Source: Bacteroidales bacterium (GTDB lineage: Bacteria > Bacteroidota > Bacteroidia > Bacteroidales > VadinHA17). Taken from it: 39,613 nucleotides of DNA. The notes below the pieces were generated by a model. That model saw only the letters and a list, made by a program, of their open reading frames with translations, was not told the origin of the DNA and made no database searches. How positions within the stretch are numbered: position 1 is the stretch's first letter; each line of letters begins with the position of its first letter. The position numbers and the translations under genes were made by a program. Positions 15,791-39,613 of the stretch are shown here, piece after piece. Where the stretch lies: positions 1 through 39,613 of the forward strand of contig JAHYJA010000010.1 in NCBI GenBank assembly GCA_019429325.1, written 5' to 3'.

Positions 15791-15822
15791 AGAGGGGGAG
15801 AAGGGGAGAGGGGGAGAAGGGG
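15791..15822 (+). repeat. Purine-only 16-base direct repeat with G-quadruplex potential
   Basis: Two perfect copies of AGAGGGGGAGAAGGGG stand head to tail, 12 bases after the arcC stop. The plus strand therefore carries four G runs (15794-98, 15803-06, 15810-14, 15819-22) separated by loops of only three or four bases, which fits the standard intramolecular G-quadruplex pattern. It would be in the arcC mRNA 3' region. Confidence 0.7.
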
Positions 15823-15851
15823 AGCACCGCAGAGATCGGGGCTGGGATCAG

Positions 15852-15950
15852 GTCGTGCAGGTCGTGCAGGTCGTGCAGGTCGTGCAGGTCATGCAGGTCG
15901 TGCAGGTCATGCAGGTCGTGCAGGTCGTGCAGGTCGTGCAGGTCATGCAA
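15852..15950 (+). repeat. Tandem 9-base repeat array, 11 units
   Basis: Eleven consecutive copies of GTCGTGCAG; units 5, 7 and 11 have GTCATGCAG-type changes, and the last ends in A. Because 9 is a multiple of 3, the array is open in several frames and would encode RSC or HDL tripeptides, but it lies between genes and has no start or context, so it is not a coding region. It is the middle part of the repeat island between arcC and the carbamoyltransferase gene. Confidence 0.95.
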
Positions 15951-15969
15951 GCCTATAGACTTTTCTTAC

Positions 15970-16011
15970 TTCCGTCTCCGGTCTCCGGTCTTCCGTCTCC
16001 GGTCTTCGGTC
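15970..16011 (+). repeat. Degenerate 7-base tandem repeat, six units
   Basis: Six heptamers in a row: TTCCGTC, TCCGGTC, TCCGGTC, TTCCGTC, TCCGGTC, TTCGGTC. It ends 29 bases before the promoter element of the carbamoyltransferase gene. It is the third repeat type in the same 300-base gap. Confidence 0.85.
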
Positions 16012-16039
16012 TATTCTGTTATTTTCCGAATTAATTCAT

Positions 16040-34850: not shown

Positions 34851-35333
34851 CTACTCGTATTCCCTGAGAATGTTCCTGACATCATCCGGAGCCACCCTTC
34901 CATAGGTTTTATCACCCACCAGAACAACCGGAGCCAGTCCGCAAGCACCGACACATCGCAGGCTGGATAGTGAGAATTTGCCATCGGTGGTAGTTTGACC
35001 GACCTGAAGGTTAAGCTCCTTTTTGAACTCATCCAGCACCTTTTCGGCTCCCCTTACATAGCAGGCAGTTCCCATGCAGATGCTTATCGGGTGCCTTCCC
35101 TTAGGGGTCATGGTAAAGAACGAATAGAATGTAACAACACCGTATATCTTTGCCACAGGTACATCGAGCTCATTTGAAACAACCTCCTGCACCTCTGCAG
35201 GGAGGTAGCCAAAATGCTCCTGACATTTGTGCAATATATTGATCAGTTCCTGTGGATCCTTGTTGAAGGAACTGCATATTTCCCTTATCTTTTCGATATC
35301 TTCCTGTCTCAATTCTATTTTTATACTTGACAT
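34851..35333 (-). CDS. hydC: NADH-dependent hydrogenase subunit HydC (NuoE-like)
   Basis: Thioredoxin-like [2Fe-2S] subunit of a HydABC-type [FeFe] hydrogenase. The 160 residues carry the four NuoE cysteines C86, C91 (ICMGTACYV) and C127, C131 (RCVGACGLAP), plus CQEHFGYLP near residue 37 and VAKIYGVVTFYSFF. Last gene of the operon hydD-hydB-hydA-hydC, 33 bases after hydA, starting with ATG. It relays electrons between NADH/flavin in HydB and HydA. No hydE, hydF or hydG maturation gene is in the window. Confidence 0.93.
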   Translation of the reverse strand: MSSIKIELRQEDIEKIREICSSFNKDPQELINILHKCQEHFGYLPAEVQEVVSNELDVPVAKIYGVVTFYSFFTMTPKGRHPISICMGTACYVRGAEKVLDEFKKELNLQVGQTTTDGKFSLSSLRCVGACGLAPVVLVGDKTYGRVAPDDVRNILREYE

Positions 35334-35366: not shown

Positions 35367-37145
35367 TTACTGTTTTACAACGATCTTTTTCTTCCTTTCA
35401 AAATAATGTGTGTGAAGCAGATGGTGAGCTTTTTCGCTGTTTGGTCTGTCTAAAAACTCTTCATAGAGTTTTATTATGAAAGGGTTCTCATGAGATTTGC
35501 GGAGTGGTTTCTTTTTGTCTTCAGCGTAAATTGCTGCTGCCCTGGCTTTTATTATCTCTGAGTTGCCATGATGCAATGGCTGGCCCCCGCCTCCGATACA
35601 GCCTCCGGGGCAGGCCATCACTTCAATGGCATGAAACTGCGACTTGCCTGACCTTACATCATCAAGAAGCTTCCTTGCATTACCCAGTCCGTGAGCAATA
35701 CCAATCCTTACGGGCAAGCCGTCGAAATCAATTGTCGCCTCACGCACACCCTCCAGTCCCCTCAGTTCAGTGAAATCCAGCCTGTCGAGCTTTTTGCCGG
35801 TCTGCAACTCGTAAGCTGTCCTGACCGCTGCTTCGATCACCCCGCCTGTTGCCCCGAAGATCACACCTGCACCAGTCGATTCACCCAGTGGAGCATCAAA
35901 ATCATCTTCTTCAAGATTGTTCAGGTCAATATTTGCCTGTTTGATGAAAGCGGCCAGTTCCCTGGTGGAAATTGAGAAATCGACATCCCGGTTATTGTCT
36001 GTCGAGAATTCTTCGCGCTGGCATTCATACTTCTTGGCAAGGCAGGGCATAATGGATACAACCACCAGGTCTTTCCTGTTTACTTTTATCTTATCGGCAA
36101 AATAGGTTTTGGCTATCGCTCCGAACATCTGCTGGGGCGATTTTGCTGTTGAGGGAACCTCCTTCAGATCGGGGAAGTAATATTCAAAAAAGTTGACCCA
36201 GCCGGGGCAACAGGATGTCAGTATAGGCAGCCTGGCACTCTTGTCTCCGCTGAGATGCCTGTTCAGCCTGTCGAGGAGCTCAGTCCCTTCTTCCATTATC
36301 GTAAGGTCCGCTGCAAAATCGGTATCGAAAACATAATCAAATCCGAGCGCTCTGAGAGCTGACACCATTTTCCCGGTCACAAGGGTGCCGGGTTCCATTC
36401 CGAACTCCTCTCCGAGAGCTGCCCTGACGGCGGGAGCAGTCTGTACAATTACTGTCTTTGACGGATCGGCGAGAGCTCTCAGCACATCCGGTGTATGGTC
36501 AACCTCAGTAAGTGCTCCTGTCGGGCAAACGGCAACACACTGACCGCAGTAGGTACAGGTTGAATGCTCGAGGTTCTGCTCAAAGGCGGGCGCTACAGCC
36601 GCCATAAACCCCCGGTTAACAGCTGACAATGCTCCAACAGTCTGTATTTCGTTGCACATCATCTCGCACCGCCGGCACATGATGCACTTGTCGAGATCTC
36701 TTATGATAGAAGGAGAGGTGTCGAGACGATAAGTCGACATTGCAGCAATTTCCTGTCCGGGTATCTCGCGGATCCCCAGTTTGTGAGCCATCGATTGAAG
36801 TTCGCAGTTCCCCGATTTAGCGCAAATAAGGCAATCCTTGGGATGATCGGAAAGAATGAATTCCATTACTGTCCTGCGGGCATTGAGAACCCTGGTTGTA
36901 TGAGTTCTGACAATCATCCCCTCTTCACAATTCGTTGCACATGAGGGCGCAAGGTTGCGGCGGCCCTCAACCTCAACAACACATATCCGGCACCCGGCAG
37001 GTTTGTTCTCAATATTCATATCCTTCAGTTCCATGTAACAGAGGACCGGTATCTCGATCCCCAGAAGTCTGGCCGCCTTGTTTATTGTTGTACCGCGGGG
37101 TACTTCAACCGCCCGGTTATCTATTGTCAGCTTTATTGTTTCCAT
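35367..37145 (-). CDS. hydA: [FeFe] hydrogenase catalytic subunit HydA, bifurcating type
   Basis: A 592-residue catalytic subunit. In order: a plant-type [2Fe-2S] domain (C36, C52, C55, C69), a His-Cys [4Fe-4S] site (H101, C105, C108, C114), two [4Fe-4S] clusters (C154, C157, C160, C164 and C197, C200, C203, C207), and the H-cluster domain with L1 TSCCPGW (310-316), L2 MPCLAKKYE (366-374), and L3 EVMACPGGCIGGGGQP (508-523). C312, the usual proton-transfer cysteine of group A enzymes, is retained. With HydB and HydC it should make H2 from NADH and reduced ferredoxin, or the reverse. A purine-rich AGAGGA lies upstream of ATG, 17 bases after hydB. Confidence 0.96.
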   Translation of the reverse strand: METIKLTIDNRAVEVPRGTTINKAARLLGIEIPVLCYMELKDMNIENKPAGCRICVVEVEGRRNLAPSCATNCEEGMIVRTHTTRVLNARRTVMEFILSDHPKDCLICAKSGNCELQSMAHKLGIREIPGQEIAAMSTYRLDTSPSIIRDLDKCIMCRRCEMMCNEIQTVGALSAVNRGFMAAVAPAFEQNLEHSTCTYCGQCVAVCPTGALTEVDHTPDVLRALADPSKTVIVQTAPAVRAALGEEFGMEPGTLVTGKMVSALRALGFDYVFDTDFAADLTIMEEGTELLDRLNRHLSGDKSARLPILTSCCPGWVNFFEYYFPDLKEVPSTAKSPQQMFGAIAKTYFADKIKVNRKDLVVVSIMPCLAKKYECQREEFSTDNNRDVDFSISTRELAAFIKQANIDLNNLEEDDFDAPLGESTGAGVIFGATGGVIEAAVRTAYELQTGKKLDRLDFTELRGLEGVREATIDFDGLPVRIGIAHGLGNARKLLDDVRSGKSQFHAIEVMACPGGCIGGGGQPLHHGNSEIIKARAAAIYAEDKKKPLRKSHENPFIIKLYEEFLDRPNSEKAHHLLHTHYFERKKKIVVKQ

Positions 37146-37162: not shown

Positions 37163-38956
37163 TTAATGAATGATGATTGCGTCAAACTTGCATTTCTCCT
37201 TGCAGGCACCGCATTTGATGCATATTTCGGGATTGATGATGTGAGGCTCTTTGCGCTCTCCGGTAATTGCATTCACAGGGCATACCCTTGCACATGCTGT
37301 ACATCCCACACAATTTGCCTCGATTATAAAGTACTCCATGAGATCGCGGCACTGGCCAGCCGGACATTTTTTAGCGGTCACATGCGATTCATACTCCTCA
37401 TAAAAGTTATCAAGAGTTGAGAGGACGGGATTGGGTGAGCTCTGACCGAGTCCGCAAAGAGATGTATCCTTTATGACCCTGCTCATGTTCCTCAGGCGGT
37501 CAAGATCGGCTGGTGCACCCTTCCCCTTTGTGATGTGTTCGAGAAGTTCATGCAGGCGCTTATTGCCTATCCTGCACGGGGAGCATTTGCCGCAGGACTC
37601 TTCGACGGTAAACTCAAGAAAGAATTTGGCTACCGATACCATACAGTCATCTTCGTCCATCACTATCAGTCCGCCGGAACCCATCATCGATCCTGCTGCG
37701 ATGAGATTGTCGAAGTCTATGGGTGTGTCGAGGTGCTTTTCTGTCAGACAACCGCCGGATGGCCCTCCGGTCTGTGCAGCCTTGAATTTTTTCCCGTCTC
37801 TTATTCCGCCGCCGATCTCAAAAACAACCTCACGAAGGGTTGTTCCCATTGGTACTTCAACCAGTCCCACATTGTTTATTTTGCCGGCGAGGGCAAAAAC
37901 CTTTGTGCCTTTTGATTTTTCCGTTCCGATACTTCTGAACCAGTCTGCACCTTTGAGGATAACAGGCGATATGCAGGCAAAGGTCTCCACGTTATTGACA
38001 TTGGTGGGTTTGCCCCTGAATCCCGATTCTGCCGGGAACGGCGGCTTCACTGTAGGCTCACCTCTCAGACCTTCCATTGAGTGGATTAATGCGGTCTCCT
38101 CGCCACAGACAAAGGCTCCGGCACCATATTTGATCCCGATATCGAAATTAAAACCAGTTCCCATGATATTGCTGCCCAGCAGCCCGTACTGCCGGGCCTG
38201 GCTGATCGCTGTTTTAAGCCTTGCCACTGCAAGCGGGTACTCGGCACGGATATAGATCAATCCGTTGGCGGCGCCGATGCAGTAGCCGCAAATGGCCATT
38301 GCCTCGAGTACTGCATGAGGATCGCCTTCAAGGACTGATCTGTCCATAAAGGCACCGGGGTCTCCTTCATCGGCATTACAGACAACATATTTTTCTTCAG
38401 CCTGGTTCTTTCTGGCAATCTCCCACTTAAGTCCTGTGGGGAAACCGCCGCCACCCCTGCCTCTTAGTCCTGAATCCTTGATTATCTTTATCGCTTCGTC
38501 CGGTGTCAGTTCCGTAAGAGCTTTAGCCAGGGCCTCGTAAGCATTGGCGGCTATCGCCTCTTCTATGTTTTCAGGATCGATTATGCCGCAATTCCTCAGT
38601 ACAATCCTGAGTTGCTTTTTGCAGGCTGACAGCTCCGGTTCAGTGGCAAGAATCTTCTGAGAAACAGGATCTTTATGAAGCAAACGTTCGACCTTTCGGC
38701 CCTTTAGAACATGTTCGGAAACTATTTCCGTTGCATCGTCGGGGCTAACGTGGGTATAAATAACCTCGTCCGGCATCACTCTTACTACCGGACCAAGTCC
38801 GCACAGGCCGAAACAGCCTGTCCTCACGACCTGTATCTCGTTCTCAAGGGCAAAGGCTTCAATTTCGAGCTGAAGGTTATCGAAGATGGCCTCGCTGTTC
38901 AGGTCGCTGCAGCCCGCTCCGCCGCATACCATTATTTGCATCCTGTATTGTGACAT
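37163..38956 (-). CDS. hydB: NADH-dependent hydrogenase subunit HydB (NuoF-like)
   Basis: Flavin and NADH-binding subunit. The 597 residues contain, in order, a thioredoxin-like [2Fe-2S] segment (VCGGAGCSDLNS, then RTGCFGLCGLGPV), the NuoF FMN/NADH domain (SGLRGRGGGGFPTGLKW and CNADEGDPGAFMDRS, GAGAFVCGEETALIHSMEG), an SLBB region, a [4Fe-4S] motif ESCGKCSPCRIG, and two C-terminal [4Fe-4S] ferredoxin motifs (CVGCTACARVCPVNAI and CIKCGACKEKCKFDAI). ATG at 38956 is preferred to a TTG at 38989: an AGAGG stretch precedes it and relatives start near this position. hydD ends 25 bases upstream. Confidence 0.95.
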   Translation of the reverse strand: MSQYRMQIMVCGGAGCSDLNSEAIFDNLQLEIEAFALENEIQVVRTGCFGLCGLGPVVRVMPDEVIYTHVSPDDATEIVSEHVLKGRKVERLLHKDPVSQKILATEPELSACKKQLRIVLRNCGIIDPENIEEAIAANAYEALAKALTELTPDEAIKIIKDSGLRGRGGGGFPTGLKWEIARKNQAEEKYVVCNADEGDPGAFMDRSVLEGDPHAVLEAMAICGYCIGAANGLIYIRAEYPLAVARLKTAISQARQYGLLGSNIMGTGFNFDIGIKYGAGAFVCGEETALIHSMEGLRGEPTVKPPFPAESGFRGKPTNVNNVETFACISPVILKGADWFRSIGTEKSKGTKVFALAGKINNVGLVEVPMGTTLREVVFEIGGGIRDGKKFKAAQTGGPSGGCLTEKHLDTPIDFDNLIAAGSMMGSGGLIVMDEDDCMVSVAKFFLEFTVEESCGKCSPCRIGNKRLHELLEHITKGKGAPADLDRLRNMSRVIKDTSLCGLGQSSPNPVLSTLDNFYEEYESHVTAKKCPAGQCRDLMEYFIIEANCVGCTACARVCPVNAITGERKEPHIINPEICIKCGACKEKCKFDAIIIH

Positions 38957-38981: not shown

Positions 38982-39368
38982 TTATTCAATAGTCTGATAA
39001 TTGACCGGAAGTATCCCTTCTAACAGTTCCCCTCCCTTTATGTACTTTTCTATTATCTCATCAGCCTTATGCCTGTCAACATTACCGAAAACAACAGGTT
39101 TTCTGCCCGGGAGAGTAACCTCAATAGTAGGTTCTGCAAAACAGTAACCCATATCACCCGTTCTTATCACGACAGCATCTATGTTCCTTTTTTCAAGTTC
39201 AAGCGTAATGAAATCAAAGATCTCATTTGCGCCCGATGCCAGCCCGCTTGTTCCGGAATGTACCCTGACGAGAACCTTTTCATTTGTCCCGTCACCTTTG
39301 GGATGCACTCTTCCGAGGATCTCATTCCTCAGTCTCCTGAGCTCTTCCGGTGATTTGATTGTTTTCAT
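38982..39368 (-). CDS. hydD: HydD-like small subunit, ferredoxin fold without its cluster cysteines
   Basis: A 128-residue protein in the first place of the hydrogenase operon. Its frame matches (2Fe-2S) thioredoxin-like ferredoxin proteins (VRVHSGTSGLASGANEIFDFI and IRTGDMGYCFAEPTIEVTLPG), but where relatives have cysteines it has S41 and D72; only C76 remains. Acetobacterium woodii has a similarly cofactor-less HydD in its four-subunit enzyme, so this could be a structural subunit. Begins with ATG at 39368. The leader carries Rex-like operators and a promoter element. Confidence 0.7.
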   Translation of the reverse strand: MKTIKSPEELRRLRNEILGRVHPKGDGTNEKVLVRVHSGTSGLASGANEIFDFITLELEKRNIDAVVIRTGDMGYCFAEPTIEVTLPGRKPVVFGNVDRHKADEIIEKYIKGGELLEGILPVNYQTIE

Positions 39369-39439: not shown

Positions 39440-39474
39440 CAAAAATAATAATTTATTTGTTAAATAAATAACAA
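39440..39474 (-). promoter_or_regulatory. Promoter of the hydrogenase operon
   Basis: On the minus strand TATTTTTG (39440-39447) is an exact -7 element; TTG at 39472-39474 is a -33 candidate with a spacer of 24 bases, one more than usual. The gene starts 71 bases downstream of the -7 element. The spacer is filled by the Rex-like operator. Confidence 0.5.
39457..39474. promoter_or_regulatory. Rex-like operator 1 of the hydrogenase operon
   Basis: TTGTTA and TAACAA arms are perfect complements around a six-base centre. Against the Rex consensus TTGTTAAnnnnTTAACAA 13 of 14 defined bases match (only position 12 is A instead of T). It overlaps the -33 region and spacer, a good place for repression. 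Confidence 0.65.
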
Positions 39475-39491
39475 TGTTAATAAAATAACAC
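39474..39491. promoter_or_regulatory. Rex-like operator 2 of the hydrogenase operon
   Basis: TGTTA and TAACA arms are perfect complements around six bases; 11 of 14 defined Rex bases match. It shares one base with operator 1 and shows the same mismatch at position 12. Confidence 0.45.
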
Positions 39492-39539
39492 TATGATTTT
39501 AGAAATTAAATTTTCTGCTTCGCTGCCTTCAACTCCCCG

Positions 39540-39560
39540 CTCCCTGCTCCCTGCTCCCAG
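39540..39560 (+). repeat. Tandem 7-base repeat, three units
   Basis: CTCCCTG, CTCCCTG, CTCCCAG in a row, followed by a related CTCACTC at 39561-39567. Together with the array that follows it makes the end of the window a repeat zone. Confidence 0.75.
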
Positions 39561-39576
39561 CTCACTCAACGGCTCA

Positions 39577-39613
39577 CCGCAATCCGCAATCCGCAATCCG
39601 CAATCCGCAATCC
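39577..39613 (+). repeat. Tandem 7-base repeat, five or more units, running off the window edge
   Basis: Five exact copies of CCGCAAT and the beginning of a sixth at the last two bases. Its full length cannot be seen. No gene follows the hydD promoter in the last 120 bases. Confidence 0.9.

Follow-up and report, generated by a model that had tools for sequence, protein, structure and literature searches.

A strictly spaced double Rex-like operator predicted to govern hydrogenase operons in Bacteroidales

Which regulator sets the output of the [FeFe]-hydrogenase operon hydDBAC in a Bacteroidales bacterium is a question raised by two inverted repeats that lie ahead of the operon. The operon and its promoter occupy one end of contig C190 of the source genome (3.39 Mb in 263 contigs); this contig, 39,613 nucleotides long, is the entire stretch of DNA that was analysed and is called the window below. 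An initial annotation of the window had read the repeats as tandem operators for the repressor Rex. The answer developed here is that the pair of repeats belongs together, that it marks a small group of mostly hydrogenase-related promoters, and that a Rex protein is its most likely binder.

Paired palindromes ahead of hydDBAC

34851..35333, minus strand: hydC, NuoE-like [2Fe-2S] subunit
35367..37145, minus strand: hydA, catalytic subunit of an NADH-dependent [FeFe]-hydrogenase of group A6 (NCBIfam NF040763)
37163..38956, minus strand: hydB, NuoF-like FMN/FeS subunit; the ATG start was chosen
38982..39368, minus strand: hydD, 128 aa; no Pfam match at 1e-5
39440-39447, minus strand: -7 promoter element TATTTTTG (TAnnTTTG), 10 bp downstream of the 33-bp operator core
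39457-39474, no strand: proximal Rex-like palindrome TTGTTAAATAAATAACAA, overlapping the expected -33 region
39474-39491, no strand: distal Rex-like palindrome ATGTTAATAAAATAACAC; base 39474 is common to both palindromes, whose centres are 17 bp apart

The proposal that the operon codes for an NADH-linked hydrogenase was borne out. HydA scored 902 bits against the NCBIfam model NF040763 (cut-off 765), and its partners are NuoF- and NuoE-like by domain, which places the set among the group A6 HydABC enzymes. The hydD product can be aligned with the N-terminal, thioredoxin-like [2Fe-2S] region of proteins of the HydB type.

Two inverted repeats sharing one base were recovered at 39457-39491, exact to the base, and the match counts of the initial annotation were reproduced. 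The proximal site agrees with 13 and the distal site with 11 of the 14 defined bases of the 18-bp Rex palindrome TTGTTAANNNNTTAACAA (TTGTKAA-N4-TTMACAA), and both carry an A at consensus position 12. A tandem-repeat scan (TRF) lists the pair as a weak repeat of period 17 (39458-39490). The element TATTTTTG, about 70 nt ahead of the hydD start on the minus strand, conforms to TAnnTTTG, which we take to be the Bacteroidota-type -7 element. The repeats had been placed between and beyond the -7 and -33 elements; they do lie upstream of the -7, but no separate -33 TTTG was identified for hydDBAC, and the -33 region falls within the proximal palindrome, so that this placement holds approximately.

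Contig C190 terminates 122 bp past the distal site, inside a 7-bp repeat array. Just upstream of the operator, short 7-bp tandem arrays lie at 39533-39613 of the window, first CTCCCTG and then CCGCAAT up to the contig end, and the CCGCAAT array probably broke the assembly. Short tandem arrays are also clustered at 15791-16012, where a 9-bp unit CAGGTCGTG occurs 11 times together with 7- and 16-bp units.

Conservation, distribution and position of the pair

The source genome shows no enrichment of single Rex boxes, with 30 at up to two mismatches versus 28 in a reversed control; in the window, six were found at up to three mismatches against 2.2 expected. A regulon of single boxes was considered and dropped as evidence, there being no excess over the control in the source genome. 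Two other single sites with one mismatch outside the pairs (L003 and L004) are, by eye, not upstream of redox genes. The paired pattern TGTTANNNNNNTAACANTGTTANNNNNNTAACA (TGTTA-N6-TAACA-N-TGTTA-N6-TAACA, with 20 defined bases) occurred twice in the 3.39-Mb source genome at up to three mismatches, versus zero for the reversed control. In a 3-Mb Markov null, at least 16 of the 20 defined bases were matched six times and at least 17 never. At up to two mismatches, 28 of the 59 genomes of the family (source included) carry the pair, and the control pattern has a single match in all 59. Two copies are present in 23 of these 28 genomes, one in four and three in one. When the spacer was allowed to vary from 0 to 30 bp in the 59 family genomes, all 14 exact pairs had 1 bp. 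Neither the pair nor its control was found at up to one mismatch in 394 other genomes of the phylum, the source genome alone of 395 being positive. The pair is not a product of chance.

The 14-base Rex consensus, on which the original reading leaned, offers a less firm basis than the pair, even though the site matches were confirmed, because single boxes are not enriched and because the inner base pair is mostly noncanonical. Among the palindromes listed from a global scan, the canonical inner pair (A..T, as in TTGTTAA..TTAACAA) is kept in 9 of 164, which counts against a Rex reading. The inner bases are asymmetric, A/A or T/T, in 91 of the 164 listed (L127-L206), the permutation mean being 63.7.

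Conservation upstream of orthologous hydrogenase operons, which had been put forward as a check on the Rex reading, was found in every case. Orthologues of hydD (E below 1e-34) are present in 27 of the 59 family genomes and all 27 have the pair upstream, 26 at up to two mismatches and G054 at three. The distance from pair to hydD is about 220 bp or less in 14 genomes, 470 and 1022 bp in two, and 2.2-4.0 kb on the same contig in 11. In these last 11, extra genes precede hydD, including genes of PHP-domain and ATPase-domain type by similarity (8 of the 11 were read from hydD as far as the operator, and the domains of the homologous gene pair were taken from L144). When 15 pair-bearing hydD promoters were aligned on the pair, information stood at 1.17 bits per column in the operator versus 0.29 in the 50 bp upstream, the half-site value being partly inflated because the promoters were chosen by the pair; the inner N6 is conserved too.

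An exact scan for the pair in 84,980 species yielded at least 110 stretches, and 80 loci were examined. All but one of these (79 of 80) are titled as Bacteroidota taxa, mostly Bacteroidales MAGs. The remaining 'Alphaproteobacteria' locus (L166) is probably a binning error, since its operator flanks are nearly identical to those of a Bacteroidales locus (L201). A cultured carrier is represented by L128, where the record of Perlabentimonas gracilis M08_MB contains the pair exactly. Matches to hydrogenase-operon genes (tblastn) occur at 68 of the 80 listed loci, some of them weak kinase-domain matches, and a hydrogenase-type gene starts within 700 bp, pointing away, at 63 of 83 listed operators. 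At three of the 12 loci without hydrogenase matches (L158, L178 and L205), the operator precedes genes of the DRTGG type, confirmed by domain at L178. At three more of the 12 (L129, L154 and L182) the pair lies near other genes, and at L129 a protein read by eye as cyclic-nucleotide-binding adjoins one operator. At a further three, in other Bacteroidales, the pair stands directly ahead of a glutamate dehydrogenase gene (L134, L170 and L203; confirmed by model at L170). The L170 enzyme also scores above the threshold of an NADP-specific model and so is not clearly an NADH enzyme, which counts against a Rex reading. The last of the 12 are L176, where a V/A-type ATPase cluster is found behind the pair, and L175 and L202, with similar genes nearby by eye.

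The position of the operator relative to the promoter differs between gene types. Among the hydD promoters listed from the global set, TAnnTTTG lies within 45 bp of the operator in 23 of 24 (shuffle mean 1.2), at 8-10 bp in 14, at 19 bp in one and at 30 bp in eight. It is present in all 10 DRTGG-first promoters, at 8-10 bp in seven and at 29 bp in three. Placement is more scattered for the divergent pair of promoters of the second operon described below, with TAnnTTTG in 9 of 20 and 11 of 16. None of the 13 HydC-first promoters has TAnnTTTG downstream of the operator, which in 12 of them lies about 20-40 nt from the start codon (by eye). The 8-10 bp placement at hydD and the HydC-first placement fit steric repression, and the placement at 29-30 bp could be activation. 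A position upstream of a free promoter is the usual place of an activator, and the 8 of 24 hydD promoters with offset 30, where the operator is upstream of an apparently free -33/-7 promoter, count against a plain repression reading.

Linkage to rex and candidate binders

The second pair of the source genome (C243:24585-24617, one mismatch) precedes NuoE-like and NuoF-like genes, and contig C243 ends 1.7 kb after them. In relatives, this second operon comprises genes for NuoE-like, NuoF-like and HydA-like proteins, a histidine kinase with an [FeFe]-hydrogenase domain, a response regulator and a response regulator-kinase, followed by rexA and ribF. It is complete in L117, L118 and L126, and a gene is missing or split in L120, L121 and L122; domains were assigned from the L118 proteins except RibF. 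Divergently, on the opposite side of the second operator, are genes for a [2Fe-2S] protein, a second hydrogenase-domain protein and a SpoIIE-type phosphatase. Of the 26 operator-bearing family genomes that have rex, 20 carry the second operator and rexA on a single contig at a distance of 0.4-8.1 kb, the intervening genes having been read in several; in the remaining six, the source genome included, the two are on separate contigs. The second operon of the source genome is therefore reconstructed from relatives, and its rexA (C210) is flanked by the same neighbours as in relatives. In G037 (L119), an apparent deletion has spared rexA, the operator and a portion of the NuoE-like gene. RexA is the only protein with a DNA-binding domain among the operon proteins scanned, a set that leaves out the ribF product.

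The presence of a rex gene was a further check named by the initial annotation, and two were found in the source genome, encoding RexA (C210; 209 aa) and RexB (C99; 231 aa), both above the NCBIfam Rex cut-offs. Types A and B are also the two main Rex types among the genomes examined. The source RexA aligns to solved Rex structures, and Arg, Tyr and Asp, which we take to be the Rex sensing triad, are aligned between RexA of G018 and chain 3ikv. The Rex domain PF06971 is found in 26 of the 28 operator-bearing family genomes. G025 has a 25-residue match to the end of rexA; in G010 (98% complete, with its single pair copy at the hyd operator) a search for Rex gave no match at E up to 10, which counts against a Rex reading. 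Among the 31 family genomes that lack the operator, 27 also have Rex. Because it is so common there, its presence alone says little, and co-occurrence was dropped as a weak argument.

Linkage of rex to the operator is what was found, in the rexA of the second operon and at L138 and L314. All 49 global-scan genomes examined have Rex, and in 48 of them the matched portion of the profile indicates the A type. These genomes were reached via 50 of the 80 loci, and at least four are also family genomes with identical coordinates (G460=G020, G473=G057, G487=G050, G501=G006). In the exception, L138, the operator separates the sole rex from a divergently oriented hydrogenase operon. A response-regulator gene stands beside rexA in 28 of the 30 rex loci read; L306 is near a contig end, and at L314 rexA (of G499) stands alone behind a perfect TTGTTAAATTCTTAACAA (TTGTTAA-N4-TTAACAA), directly after which comes a second palindrome whose core is 5 bp long.

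Pair conservation, linkage to rex and the two Rex genes support the predicted Rex reading of the operators at the hydrogenase promoter. The 35-bp element would thus be a double Rex operator, most likely for RexA, to which we assign a probability of roughly 85%. Comparison across genomes also supports a wider interpretation, in which a strictly spaced double operator would define a small, hydrogenase-centred Bacteroidales regulon linked to rex.

The main doubt concerns the identity of the binder, because the core geometry is of the CRP type and the canonical inner Rex pair is rare. CRP-type sites have the form TGTGA-N6-TCACA, and TGTTA-N6-TAACA shares their 5+6+5 geometry, with an N6 that is weakly constrained. 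The operator could on this basis belong to an activator of the CRP/FNR family, the dimer of which would touch RNA polymerase from a helically phased position, and we consider this unlikely. Offsets to the -7 element do form clusters at 8-10, 19-22 and 29-30 bp, a few others being at 2, 5, 7, 15, 16, 18, 24 and 27, but phasing is not relied on here, because 29-30 bp may equal an operator abutting a normal -33 and because the promoters are related by descent. CRP-type HTH genes occur in 58 of the 59 family genomes, so that absence of CRP/FNR is unusable as an argument; no CRP-type domain was found among the scanned operon proteins, however, whereas rexA lies in the operon or beside the operator. 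Variants of the form TGTGA..TCACA exist, mostly in genus g10, but the boxes of stand-alone rexA genes have the same half-sites as the pair. The HydC-first placement suits a repressor, and CRP/FNR sites 17 bp apart would presumably be crowded.

Boxes at the rex genes themselves were counted without duplicate and partial copies. Stand-alone rexA genes have a Rex box with at least 12 of 14 bases within 150 bp in 12 of 22 cases, with TGTTA- or TGTGA-type half-sites. None of 27 operon-internal rexA genes has a box of its own; this was rejected as proof and counted as consistent, since an internal gene needs no box of its own. Boxes of the type TTGTGAA-N4-TTCACAA, often over the start codon, accompany rexB genes, 27 of 30 having at least 12 of 14 bases. 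In many rexB genes (L002:1466-1483; among L237-L261), a near-perfect TTGTGAAACAATTCACAA-type box lies over or beside the start codon, which suggests that rexB is autoregulated via a canonical Rex box in its coding start. In genus g13 (L107, L112, L259 and L262), rexA- and rexB-type genes are divergent with one TTGTTTA-type box between them.

These rexB boxes, the score of RexB above the Rex cut-offs and the occurrence of TGTGAA..TTCACA as one palindrome of the hyd pair in several g10 genomes would suit a different assignment, namely that Rex binds but that the physiological binder here is RexB (C99), or that RexA and RexB compete. This appears slightly less probable still than a CRP/FNR owner. 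The boxes of rexB are mostly single sites of the TGTGA type, whereas the tandem pair is mostly of the TGTTA type, and the A type is the sole Rex in 11 of the 26 rex-containing family genomes with the operator (G048, G050, G055, G057, G001, G006, G015, G016, G037, G052 and G054); box types and A-type-only genomes together make RexA the likelier binder. An explanation of the pair as a chance repeat or AT-rich promoter element without a dedicated regulator, as the AT-rich region and the weak 17-bp repeat listed by TRF might suggest, is highly improbable, as the pair is far above the controls and the Markov null, its spacing is fixed in the family set and, a strong argument, it recurs in non-orthologous promoters (hydD, DRTGG-first, NuoE2, HydC-first and glutamate dehydrogenase).

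Proposed mechanism and relation to known systems

For the double Rex operator, RexA is the predicted binder, and a response to NADH, repression and cooperativity are inferred from the behaviour of the Rex family. A pair of Rex dimers, most likely RexA, would occupy adjacent positions over the -33 region, immediately upstream of the -7 element, in a fixed register of 17 bp and, at low NADH, would exclude RNA polymerase from hydDBAC. With a rise in NADH, Rex would come off the DNA, the NADH-linked [FeFe]-hydrogenase would be made and reducing equivalents would be disposed of as H2. RexA would also govern its own supply, as is proposed because the double operator of relatives heads the rexA-containing second operon. 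A more ambitious joint reading is offered tentatively and is doubtful as a whole: RexA may act as a position-dependent switch and not as a plain single-box repressor, with two dimers as one unit on nearly opposite faces of the DNA, blocking over the -33 or the transcription start and possibly activating at a phased distance beside a free -33. Together with the sensor hydrogenase-kinase, such a switch would join the sensing of NADH and H2 in a self-regulating circuit that sets the H2 output of uncultured anaerobic Bacteroidales.

Rex control of hydrogenases has precedents. In Caldicellulosiruptor bescii, gel shifts with Rex are reported, a Rex box lies upstream of the bifurcating [FeFe]-hydrogenase operon and rex autoregulates, much as a Rex box is predicted ahead of an [FeFe]-hydrogenase operon here (PMC6391272, PMC8579813). 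A Rex site overlapping the promoter was argued to repress, and one upstream of it possibly to activate (PMC8579813). That system differs in its 20-bp palindromic motif, its broad central-metabolism regulon and its Gram-positive, thermophilic host, and the available text of the two papers describes no paired operator (PMC6391272, PMC8579813), whereas the Bacteroidales sites form a pair at a 17-bp register with mostly hydrogenase operons as targets. Similarly, in Caldithrix abyssi rex is clustered with an NAD/ferredoxin [FeFe]-hydrogenase and a Rex site is predicted upstream; a single site is given (cTGTGAATCAATTCACAt), the hydrogenase genes lie downstream of rex, and the accessible parts of the paper describe neither a tandem operator nor a second sensor operon (PMC5317091). 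A Rex site is also predicted at the promoter of the electron-bifurcating hydrogenase Hnd of Solidesulfovibrio fructosivorans, for which the putative sensor hydrogenase HydS was proposed as a further regulator (PMC10084766). That is a prediction for one species, whereas in several of the genomes read here a shared operator heads an operon that contains both rex and the gene for a hydrogenase-domain histidine kinase.

Two Rex sites occur in the rex and adhE promoters of Streptococcus mutans, one in the rex promoter overlapping the -35; no hydrogenase is involved, and in the portions available the spacing is not reported as fixed or shared (PMC3441419). Streptomyces avermitilis has two adjacent half-sites at one promoter, a layout unlike the pair here (PMC5355995). 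Within the open-licence PMC literature, much of it available in part, we found neither a tandem Rex operator of fixed spacing nor Bacteroidota hydrogenases under the control of Rex, and a prior description is possible. Rex-hydrogenase control is already known, and the strictly spaced double operator in Bacteroidales would be a new form of it.

In sediments and digesters, methanogens and syntrophs are fed by the H2 that fermenting Bacteroidales release. Little was found in the accessible open-licence PMC literature on how the hydrogenases of these bacteria are switched. The present analysis names one candidate regulator, RexA, together with an architecture, a fixed 17-bp double operator and a rex gene co-operonic with an H2-sensor-type kinase. 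The 33-bp signature marks hydrogenase operons across uncultured lineages and offers a sequence-only handle on their control.
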